The notes below the pieces were generated by a model that was not told where the DNA came from, searched no databases, and saw only the letters and a program-made list of their open reading frames with translations. A stretch of DNA of 49,121 nucleotides from an uncultured delta proteobacterium (lineage in GTDB: Bacteria; Myxococcota_A; Polyangia; Polyangiales; Polyangiaceae), in the NCBI GenBank assembly GCA_903906315.1, contig CAIVJW010000357.1:1-49121 (forward strand), read 5' to 3'. This document shows positions 21,815-25,325 of the stretch, piece by piece. The position numbers were made by a program, and so were the translations under genes. How positions within the stretch are numbered: the first letter of the stretch is position 1; each line of letters opens with the position of its first letter.

Positions 21815-22708
21815 ATGGCTCAGCTCGGGTCGCTCGATTTCAGGGGATTCGTCGACGGTCGAAGGCACCAGCGGGCAGGCGGCGCCGAGGGCAGCGGGCA
21901 CGCGTACGCGTACGTCTCGGACCGGACGACGCGCCTGGCGTTCGATCGGATCAAGCCCGTCGAGCTCGCGGTCACGGCCGCGGTCCGCATGTTCAAGGCC
22001 GTCTCGAAGAACGAGCTCCTGGGCCACGCCGTGAAGGTCGGGCCAAAGCAGTTCCCGCGCGTGCACAACCTCGTCGTCCGCTGCGCCGAGACGCTCGGCA
22101 TCGCGACGCCCACCGTCTACATCCGCAACGCGCCGACGCTCAACGCGGCGACGTACGGCACGAACGACGACTCGTTCATCATCGTCCACTCGGCCCTCGT
22201 CGATCACTTCACCGACGAGGAGCTCCTCAGCGTGATCGGCCACGAGTGCGGGCACATCCACAACAGCCACGTCGTGTACCTGACGACGCTGCATTACCTC
22301 ACGACGATGGCGTCCATCTTCGTGCAGTGGGCGGTGCAGCCTGCGGTGCTCGCGCTCAATGGCTGGTCGCGCCGCGCGGAGGTCACCTGCGACCGCGCGG
22401 GCCTGATGTGCTCGAGGAGCCTCGACACCTCCACGCGCGCGCTCGCCAAGCTCGCCCTCGGATCGACCAAGCTCTACGAGCAGCTCAACCTCGAGGCGTT
22501 CCTCGACCAGTACCAGGAGGGGCAGGACGGCGTCGGCCGGTACGTCGAGCTCCGGGCCAGCCACCCGTGGCTGCCGAAGCGGGTGCTTGCGCTGCGCGTG
22601 TTCGCCGAGAGCGAGCTGTTCCGCAAGCACGCGAGCCTCGGTGAGGGCGGCCTGCCGATGACCGACGTCGACGACAAGGTGCACGACATCATCAAGGTGC
22701 TGGGTTAG
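21815..22708 (+). CDS. M48-family zinc metallopeptidase
   Basis: A 297-residue peptidase. The zinc motif HECGH (about 144-148) follows LLSVIG in an active-site helix, and the third ligand is probably the Glu in RAEVTCDRAG (about 188-197). Before it, LGIATPTVYIRNAPTLNA and TYGTNDDSFIIVHSALVD match the substrate-binding strands of HtpX/Ste24/OMA1-type enzymes. There is no signal peptide. One hydrophobic stretch between the two metal motifs (YLTTLHYLTTMASIFVQWAV and on) could sit in or on the membrane. The C-terminal part, with RASHPWLPKRVLALRVF, is typical of the family. The start is 6 bases from TACCTT. The stop is only 8 bases before the dynamin-like gene, so the two are co-transcribed. Its substrate may be that neighbour. 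Confidence 0.92.
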   Translation: MAQLGSLDFRGFVDGRRHQRAGGAEGSGHAYAYVSDRTTRLAFDRIKPVELAVTAAVRMFKAVSKNELLGHAVKVGPKQFPRVHNLVVRCAETLGIATPTVYIRNAPTLNAATYGTNDDSFIIVHSALVDHFTDEELLSVIGHECGHIHNSHVVYLTTLHYLTTMASIFVQWAVQPAVLALNGWSRRAEVTCDRAGLMCSRSLDTSTRALAKLALGSTKLYEQLNLEAFLDQYQEGQDGVGRYVELRASHPWLPKRVLALRVFAESELFRKHASLGEGGLPMTDVDDKVHDIIKVLG

Positions 22709-22716
22709 GAGCCGCC

Positions 22717-24531
22717 ATGCTCGAGAGCTTCCACGGCAAGAAGAGCGACGTCACCTCGGCGCTGCGCGGCCTCTCCGGCCTCGCGGAGAAGGTCGGCGCC
22801 AAGAGCCTCGCGGCGCGGATCGAGGTCGACCTCGTGCAAAAGCTCGAGGCCGATCGGTTCCACCTGGTCGTCGTCGGCGAGTTCAACCACGGCAAGACCA
22901 CATTCGTGAACGCGCTGCTCGGCGCGTCGATCCTGCCGGTCGGCGTGACGCCGACGACGGCCGTCATCCACCACCTCGAGCACGCCGACAGCCCGCGGGC
23001 CGAGCTCGTGTACGCCAACGGCGATCGCGCTCCCCTGCCCTTCGAGGAGGTGAAGACGTTCGCCGTCGGCGGCTCGCACGGCGACGATGGGCGCGAGGTC
23101 AAGCACCTCGAGGTCGGCTACCCGGCGGAGCTCCTGCGCGAGCGCATCGTGCTGGTCGACACGCCAGGGGTGAACGACCTGTCGCTCCAGCGCGCGGACA
23201 TCACCTACAGCTACATCCCGCGATCGGACGCCGTGCTCTTCCTGCTCGACGCCGGTCAGCCGCTGAAGGAGAGCGAGCGCGTCTTCCTGCAGGAGAAGCT
23301 GCTCGCGCAGTCGCGCGACAAGATCCTCTTCGTCGTGACCAAGCGCGACATCTGGAGCGACGACGAGCGCGACGAGGCCCTGCGCTACATCCAGCGCGAG
23401 CTCGGCAAGCTCGTGCGCACGCCGATGGTCTTCCCCGTCTCGGCACAGCAGGCGCTCGAGGGTCACCCGGATCAGAGCGGGATGCCCGAGCTCCTCGCGC
23501 ACCTCACGCGGTTCCTCGCCGAGGAACGCGGCCGGATCCTGCTCGACAACGCCCTCGGCGAGGGCCTCGAGGCGGGCAAGCTGCTCCGCCGCGGCGTCGA
23601 CGCGCGCCGACGCGCCGTCGCGATGTCGACCGAGGAGCTCACGCGCCGCATCGACCTCATCGAGAAGGACCTCGCCGGTCAGTCGCGCACGATCGACGAG
23701 CGGCGCGCCGGCATCCGCGAAGAGGTCGCCGCGGTCCGGGCCTGGGTGCGGCGGGATCTCGACCGCTTCTGCGACGACGCCGTCCGCCAGTTGCCGGCGA
23801 TGATCGACGCCGCGACGACCGAGGAGCTGAAGCTGCACCTGGGCCCGTTCCTCGAAAAGACGGTCACCGAGTGGGCGCAGGCCGAGACGACCGAGATCGC
23901 CGGCGCCCTCGAGGCGCTGGCAGAGAAGACGATCGCCCTCGTGCGCGACGACGCGCACGACGTCGCGAAGCGGGTCGGCGAGGCGCTCGGCGGCGACGTG
24001 CGAGCCCCGAACGTCGAGGTCGACACGTTCGGCTACGACGTGGGCGTGTTCGCGCTGTTCACGATCGGCCTCGGCGTGATGCTGTCGAACGCCCTGCTCG
24101 GAGGCCTGCTCACGCTCGCCGCGCCGGTGCTGGCGGTCTATGTCAAGGAGAAGGTCGAGGTCGAGACGCGCAAGAAGGCCAAGGAGCTCGCCCCCGCAGC
24201 GCTGCGCGAGACGGCCGCCCGCGTGGGGCCCAAGCTCGACGAGATGATCCAGGAGTTCGCCAAGCGACTCGATGCGTGGGTCGTCACCGCGGGCGAGGAG
24301 CTGCACCGCGAGGTCATCGAGGTGCTCGAGGCCGCGCGCGCGGAGCGCGGCGAGACGCAGCCGGCCGCCGAAACCGCCCTCGCGACGTGCGAGGCGGAGC
24401 TCGAGGTGCTGAGCTCCCTGCAAGCGCAGCTCGAGGGGCTCCGCAGCGCGCTGTGGACGCCGTCGAACGGTGAGTCGACTCACAAGCCGACGCGCCCGAC
24501 GGAGCCGAACGCGCCAGGCGGCACCGCGTAG
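22717..24531 (+). CDS. Dynamin-like large GTPase
   Basis: A 604-residue bacterial dynamin-family protein. The GTPase domain has G1 GEFNHGKTT (54-62), G2 Thr in GVTPTTA (76-82), G3 DTPG (about 148-151) and G4 TKRD (about 208-211). A long helical region follows (about 300-430, then 475-600), and between them lie two hydrophobic segments (VGVFALFTIGLGVMLSNALL and GGLLTLAAPVLAVYV, about 441-475), the likely membrane-inserting paddle. Relatives remodel or repair membranes in bacteria, and mitofusins and OPA1 do so in eukaryotes. The last 20 residues are Thr/Pro-rich and disordered. Placed between an M48 peptidase and an MglA-like GTPase, it may act in stress-linked membrane repair or polarity; that is inference. 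Confidence 0.92.
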   Translation: MLESFHGKKSDVTSALRGLSGLAEKVGAKSLAARIEVDLVQKLEADRFHLVVVGEFNHGKTTFVNALLGASILPVGVTPTTAVIHHLEHADSPRAELVYANGDRAPLPFEEVKTFAVGGSHGDDGREVKHLEVGYPAELLRERIVLVDTPGVNDLSLQRADITYSYIPRSDAVLFLLDAGQPLKESERVFLQEKLLAQSRDKILFVVTKRDIWSDDERDEALRYIQRELGKLVRTPMVFPVSAQQALEGHPDQSGMPELLAHLTRFLAEERGRILLDNALGEGLEAGKLLRRGVDARRRAVAMSTEELTRRIDLIEKDLAGQSRTIDERRAGIREEVAAVRAWVRRDLDRFCDDAVRQLPAMIDAATTEELKLHLGPFLEKTVTEWAQAETTEIAGALEALAEKTIALVRDDAHDVAKRVGEALGGDVRAPNVEVDTFGYDVGVFALFTIGLGVMLSNALLGGLLTLAAPVLAVYVKEKVEVETRKKAKELAPAALRETAARVGPKLDEMIQEFAKRLDAWVVTAGEELHREVIEVLEAARAERGETQPAAETALATCEAELEVLSSLQAQLEGLRSALWTPSNGESTHKPTRPTEPNAPGGTA

Positions 24532-24599: not shown

Positions 24600-25325
24600 G
24601 TGCAGCTCGACTTCGCGGCGCGCGAGGTGACGATCAAGCTCGTCTACTACGGCCCTGCGCTCAGCGGGAAGACGACGAACCTCGTCGCGCTCCACCGCCA
24701 GGCGGGTACGGACGCGCGCGGACGCCTGATGACGCTCGAGACGCAGGACGATCGCACGCTGTTCTTCGACCTCCTGCCGCTGACGTTCCGGGCGAAGGAC
24801 GGCGACGTCTCGCTGCGCATCAAGCTCTTCACCGTCCCCGGCCAGCCCGTCCACTCGGCCACGCGCAAGCTCGTGCTCCAGGGAGCGGACGGCGTCGCGC
24901 TCATCGCCGACTCGCAGCTGTCGGCCACGCAGCGCAACGCGGAGAGCTTCTTCGACCTTCGACAGAACCTGAAGGACAACGGGCTCGAGCTCGGGAAGAT
25001 GCCGCTCGTCATCCAGTTCAACAAGCGCGATCTGCCCGACATCCGCACCGAGGAGGAGCTGGAGCGGCTCGCGACGCGCGGCAAGGAGCCCGTCTTCAGC
25101 GCGATCGCGACGCGCGGCGCCGGGACGGTCGAGACCTTCCTCGGCCTCCTCCAGCTCACCTGGCAAACCCTCGACCGCACCCACCAGCTCTCGCGCCGCA
25201 TGTCGCTCGACGGCGAGGAGCTCATCGAGGGCGCAGCTCGCCAGCTCGGCGCGACCGTGCCCGTGCGCGAGCTACTCGCCCGCAACTTGGGCCTCCCCGA
25301 GCCGGGGCCGCGGGGAGCACCGTGA
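24600..25325 (+). CDS. MglA-like small Ras-family GTPase
   Basis: A 241-residue GTPase related to MglA, the polarity switch of myxobacterial motility. I start it at GTG 24600 because VQLDFAAREVTIKLVYYGP lines up with the usual MglA beginning; ATG 24576 would add an unmatched MAPCQYAA. G1 is GPALSGKTTN (18-27). The MglA hallmark TVPGQ (78-82) replaces the Ras DTAGQ and is followed by SATRKLVLQGADGVALIADS. G4 is NKRD. The C-terminus extends about 45 residues past the fold, with SRRMSLDGEELIEGAARQLG. No MglB (roadblock) partner lies next to it. It overlaps the histidine kinase by GTGA, so the two are translationally coupled. Confidence 0.9.
   Translation: MQLDFAAREVTIKLVYYGPALSGKTTNLVALHRQAGTDARGRLMTLETQDDRTLFFDLLPLTFRAKDGDVSLRIKLFTVPGQPVHSATRKLVLQGADGVALIADSQLSATQRNAESFFDLRQNLKDNGLELGKMPLVIQFNKRDLPDIRTEEELERLATRGKEPVFSAIATRGAGTVETFLGLLQLTWQTLDRTHQLSRRMSLDGEELIEGAARQLGATVPVRELLARNLGLPEPGPRGAP

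Follow-up and report, generated by a model that had tools for sequence, protein, structure and literature searches.

A gene for a peptidase family M48 protein and a gene for a dynamin-like protein (DLP) of the BDLP/mitofusin type lie 8 bases apart on the forward strand of a 49,121-nucleotide stretch of Polyangiaceae DNA (the window), and the same pairing is found in five or more bacterial phyla. We judge it somewhat more probable than an even chance (about 0.55) that the M48 protein is a dedicated partner that docks on and regulates the DLP, with proteolysis ancestral but dispensable. The locus contains the following features.

21815..22708, forward strand: M48 metallopeptidase-family gene, 297 aa (Pfam PF01435 Peptidase_M48, E=4e-26)
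21833..21865, forward strand: N-terminal motif of the M48 protein, a candidate docking segment (codons 7-17, here LDFRGFVDGRR)
22241..22255, forward strand: HECGH zinc-binding/catalytic motif, residues 143-147, intact (sequence and alignment)
22379..22381, forward strand: E189, predicted third zinc ligand, within AEVTCDRAG (alignment)
22708..22711, forward strand: GGAG, Shine-Dalgarno-like, overlapping the M48 stop codon TAG at 22706-22708 (sequence)
22717..24531, forward strand: DLP gene, BDLP/mitofusin type, 604 aa (Pfam PF00350 Dynamin_N, E=2.5e-28)
22876..22899, forward strand: DLP P-loop GEFNHGKT, residues 54-61, with G54 and G59 invariant in the alignment
24022..24162, forward strand: hydrophobic paddle-like region of the DLP, residues about 436-482, with hydropathy peaks at 442 and 464
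24600..25325, forward strand: MglA-like small GTPase gene (PDB MglA, E=4.5e-48; no Pfam hit)

The M48 protein scores 92.3 bits against PF01435 (curated cut-off 20.3), and the HExxH and third-ligand residues H143, E144, H147 and E189 are all present. The start chosen for the gene is backed by the conserved N-termini of homologues, and the AlphaFold2 model has a mean pLDDT of 87.5. Hydropathy shows no N-terminal transmembrane helix and a single weak internal stretch (1.31). With these residues in place the protein is probably a competent zinc peptidase, as in most lineages. Only one other M48 match, a weak one (4e-4; G000:C132:107003-107614), was found in the same genome, and a canonical HtpX was not found in this 8.8 Mb assembly.

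The DLP has the G1, G3 and G4 motifs of the dynamin superfamily (GEFNHGKT, DTPG and TKRD). Its AlphaFold2 model (mean pLDDT 81.5, the paddle-like region being the low-confidence part) matches Mfn1 (Z 27.5), IniA (Z 24.5) and BDLP (Z 22.9, 533 residues aligned), as well as Fzo1, and a profile search of the PDB returns BDLP (1e-56) and Mfn2 (2e-22). The nearest solved relatives are BDLP, Cj-DLP, IniA and the mitofusins, and the helical trunk and paddle, with BDLP and mitofusin as the closest structures, place the protein in the BDLP/mitofusin type. OPA1/Mgm1 is absent from the 60 PDB profile matches listed, which is not proof of absence, and hydropathy shows no hydrophobic N-terminal stretch of the OPA1 type. 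The open reading frames, Pfam matches and motifs agree with the preliminary description of an M48 protein with HECGH encoded 8 bases upstream of a same-strand dynamin GTPase, and the two paddle-like segments that it reported correspond to hydrophobic stretches starting at residues 442 and 464. The single upstream promoter of that description was not recovered by a sigma-70 scan, a result that says little in a GC-rich region. An MglA-like gene also occurs near the pair in Polyangiaceae relatives, either downstream or divergently upstream, and none was seen outside the order in the loci inspected; it is a frequent neighbour in close relatives only, outside the conserved core.

Among the sampled Myxococcota, 79 of 83 orthologous M48 genes have a DLP directly downstream on the same strand; of the four exceptions, three (G018, G180 and G290) are compatible with truncation at a contig end. 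When all 90 phylum-wide M48 hits are scored (59 relatives pooled with a 284-genome phylum sample), the same arrangement is found in 79, with a median gap of 76 bases; the remaining 11 comprise seven that are other M48 types or have other DLPs, three cases consistent with contig ends and one true separation (G082). The genes are also present and absent together. An M48 orthologue (E at most 1e-79) occurs in 38 of the 59 relatives and is accompanied by a DLP orthologue in 37, the exception being G018, where the M48 gene is at a contig end, while all 21 relatives lacking the M48 orthologue also lack the DLP. Two genomes with a DLP (G224 and G274) carry an adjoining M48 gene that is catalytically dead and falls below the M48 hit threshold, and a third (G234) has a DLP with no M48 nearby. 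The adjacency is far beyond chance, and the pair reaches well beyond this genome. Its closest kin are in Polyangiaceae, as judged from the named relatives Sorangium and Polyangium.

The spacing of the genes varies. Stop-start overlaps of M48 and DLP appear in several loci, approximately, as homologue starts were chosen by rule. In one Myxococcota family (f27; L085-L095 and L119) 20 to 1,400 bases of unexplained sequence separate the two genes. Both genes are present and held apart in G082 (L100) and G340 (L295), one of which has a dead M48, so the pair can work without being linked. Loci from other orders of the class (L081, L082, L084, L160, L161 and L166) have another, distinct DLP within a few kb downstream of the pair; both active and dead M48 proteins occur among them.

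A scan of 84,980 species genomes yielded 80 named loci, 44 of which have a DLP in the same locus as the M48 gene. The linked M48 genes derive from Myxococcota, Cyanobacteriota (Vasconcelosia and Nostocaceae), Bacillota, Fibrobacterota, Chloroflexota and a metagenome-assembled genome labelled Pseudomonadota. DLP-M48-DLP is the usual order in the other phyla and also in two families of Myxococcota (L112 and L113). In the DLP tree, several deep joins of which are unsure, the DLPs encoded upstream of the M48 gene in these arrays and those encoded downstream fall into two distinct groups, each with support, and the downstream DLP of Myxococcota makes up another. This separation by position makes the arrangement look old. 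In the M48 tree linkage requires one change, with linked M48s on one side of a single branch and four odd cases unscored. Generic M48s of Actinomycetota and other groups, which lack an adjacent DLP, are placed apart from the linked group in the tree; two M48s of the linked clade from outside Myxococcota (L130 and L178) have no DLP within the stretch fetched.

Further conserved genes in the arrays outside Myxococcota amount to just two small three-locus families. In one Bacillota group (L177:2543-4246, with homologues in L168 and L183) a helical protein of ~570 aa with no recognised GTPase domain is encoded between M48 and DLP, followed by a small membrane-like protein. A link to PspA has been suggested for Actinomycetota relatives of the M48 protein (PMC11237479); no conserved PspA-like neighbour was recognised in 14 loci, and this association was set aside. 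Plasmid carriage was likewise rejected, as plasmid M48 and DLP matches are all under 60% identity and the pair is in none of the four regions opened. An earlier paper mentions a conserved context for some DLPs of cyanobacteria, without naming any peptidase in its main text (PMC5827413).

The catalytic residues of the M48 protein are less uniformly conserved than its position. Among 88 M48 sequences in a tree built without the four scored catalytic columns, 24 are dead, with HExxH or the third ligand altered. The altered motifs are HHCGH, HQLGH, HALGH, RECGR, RECGH, RECAH, QQCGH, RQLGH, RGLGH, RALGH, RLLGH, RTLGY, RTLAY, RQFGK and GAFGH. Mapping these states onto the tree takes 9 changes; strongly supported branches (SH-aLRT at least 95) require no fewer than 6 of them. 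A single origin is rejected when all dead sequences are held together (p-AU 4e-5), as is holding together the class-level dead sequences (p-AU 2e-63), values that are strong and not exact given quick-search trees and groups named after the states seen. Conversion to a pseudopeptidase has occurred in at least six lineages and probably in nine or more. A DLP lies downstream of 21 of the 24 dead genes in the DNA fetched; of the other three, two (L110 and L253) stop close to the end of a contig and one, in G340 (L295), has its DLP on another contig.

Six residues that are invariant in active members (Q79, N110, H143, E144, E189 and H250) are lost in dead ones. E189 is invariant in active M48s both linked and unlinked, and is replaced by A, D, N, V, Q or L in many dead ones. 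Most linked M48s retain the complete active site (HExxH, E189, N110 and H250), which indicates that catalysis is clearly under selection in most lineages.

The dead copies are themselves under purifying selection. Three close pairs of dead M48s from one family (f14) give dN/dS of 0.024-0.028, and five other dead pairs 0.11-0.49, compared with 0.03-0.32 for active pairs (NG86). Dead M48s keep W184, T191, D193, R194, A195, F263, G279 and D286, together with the N-terminal segment. The family consensus of this segment is F-D-F-x-x-Y-[VI]-x-x-[RK]-[RK], and the motif is limited to DLP-linked M48s. Its information content per column is 3.33 bits in dead M48s, 2.66 in active linked Myxococcota, 1.95 in linked M48s of other phyla and 1.05 in unlinked M48s. 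AlphaFold2 models the segment as a helix, with low confidence. This distribution points to a putative docking site for the DLP, and the motif could instead serve membrane binding. On the partner side, the P-loop and DTPG are kept in all nine DLPs of dead M48s that were checked, and a simple pattern finds a G4-like motif in all except that of L081.

Present across phyla, and surviving even where the peptidase has repeatedly lost its active site, the pairing looks like an old partnership resting on binding more than on cutting. The M48 protein would be co-translated with a BDLP/mitofusin-type dynamin as its dedicated partner and would probably dock on the DLP or its membrane site through the conserved N-terminal segment; once docked, it would control the assembly or state of the DLP at the membrane. 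In most lineages, including that of the window, an active M48 may also act as a protease on the DLP or on its membrane clients, trimming or removing them. The partnership has persisted in pseudopeptidase lineages after the loss of catalysis, which suggests that binding and regulation are the conserved core function. We infer that the M48 protein physically binds the DLP and that this binding sets DLP assembly at the membrane. Points against this reading are the full active site kept by most members, the separated genes of G082 and G340, the DLP of G234 that lacks a nearby M48, and the two linked-clade M48s L130 and L178. The wider proposal of a widespread module, in which an M48-fold protein regulates a mitofusin-like dynamin stoichiometrically and by binding, whether or not it is catalytically active, is suggested by the repeated conversion to pseudopeptidases; we place it slightly short of even odds.

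The first alternative is a proteolytic switch, in which the M48 peptidase would cut the DLP under membrane stress and turn its activity on or off, functionally as OMA1 acts on OPA1. The intact active site of most linked M48s and the tight gene coupling are in keeping with such a switch, and, as no N-terminal transmembrane helix is predicted for either protein, both may act on the cytoplasmic side. However, 24 members from several lineages lack the catalytic machinery and most of these are still linked, the DLP has no N-terminal anchor to release, and a conserved cleavage site was not identified. We regard this switch as unlikely. Cutting of the GTPase by the M48 protein, as the preliminary description had proposed, cannot be a universal function, since catalytic residues have been lost repeatedly in proteins usually encoded beside a DLP; active members may cut the DLP.

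Less probable still is parallel action, with an HtpX-like quality-control peptidase working on other proteins while tethering or repair of that same membrane, once damaged, falls to the DLP, with co-expression the only link between them. HtpX is the nearest E. coli relative of the M48 protein, the genome has just the one other, weak M48 match, and DynA of B. subtilis acts in membrane surveillance (PMC8844932). However, once its active site was gone, a peptidase that served other clients would not be expected to remain beside a DLP and under selection, and the M48 protein is without the strong transmembrane helices of HtpX. It is very improbable that the pair is a mobile module for phage defence or conflict, comparable to Leo or DynA: the DLP has a weak PADLOC match to LeoA and B. 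subtilis DynA delays phage lysis (PMC8844932), but the M48 protein has no PADLOC match, most genomes have one ortholog, the pattern follows genome relatedness, and the four plasmid regions opened did not contain the pair. The DLP scores 31 bits against the NCBIfam LeoA model (cut-off 325).

In mitochondria the M48 enzyme OMA1 cuts the dynamin OPA1 from its long to its short form under stress. Here too an M48-family protein is associated with a membrane-remodelling dynamin, and in this respect the parallel drawn in the preliminary description is partly supported: the pairing is real, conserved and old. The components differ, however, as the M48 protein is HtpX-like and often catalytically dead, and the DLP resembles BDLP and the mitofusins and has no N-terminal membrane anchor, so the long-to-short cut of OPA1 has no counterpart. 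Strict homology with the OMA1-OPA1 pair is rejected for the DLP and unsupported for the M48 protein.

Profile comparison (hhalign) places the M48 group nearer to E. coli HtpX (1e-16) than to LoiP (1e-10) or BepA (2e-7), the latter two used as stand-ins for the subfamily of OMA1. BepA and LoiP branch apart in the tree, on long branches. Structure search leaves the subfamilies unseparated, with a Geobacter M48, ZMPSTE24 and BepA tied at Z of about 11. The closest of the three E. coli M48s, HtpX (M48B), shares the HExxH and SHP motifs with the M48 group. Unlike HtpX, the window's protein has only its one weak hydrophobic stretch, compared with four strong ones, and carries the N-terminal motif found only in linked members; its best score is 53.7 bits against an NCBIfam HtpX equivalog cut-off of 341.

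BDLP, Campylobacter Cj-DLP1/2, B. subtilis DynA and IniA have the same GTPase and trunk fold as the DLP described here. DLP genes often occur side by side in bacteria (PMC6104087); in contrast to those systems, an M48 gene is an integral part of the present module. DynA illustrates what a bacterial DLP can do, at damaged membranes and in phage lysis (PMC8844932). The rhomboid pseudoproteases (iRhom) and YqgP keep a protease fold for binding, after or independently of catalysis, as proposed here. YqgP, a bacterial rhomboid that combines protease and pseudoprotease-adaptor roles and is an adaptor of FtsH, offers a precedent for a double function of the M48 protein in cutting and binding (PMC7231995). 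These cases involve a different protease family and partner, whereas in the present gene pair the loss has happened many times over. In open-licence PubMed Central, where absence is not absence everywhere, no description of the M48-DLP pair was found, and none of the relevant bacterial papers retrieved names M48 and dynamin together.

To our knowledge, the regulation of bacterial dynamins is largely unknown. An operon partner conserved in at least five phyla is a concrete candidate for a dynamin regulator. The arrangement can also be compared, as an independent case, with the way proteases control mitochondrial fusion dynamins, although nothing indicates that the two share an ancestor. With both active and dead M48 partners available in nature, whether regulation is by binding or by cutting can be put to a direct test, and if the proposal is true, the M48 regulator would represent a new way of controlling dynamins.
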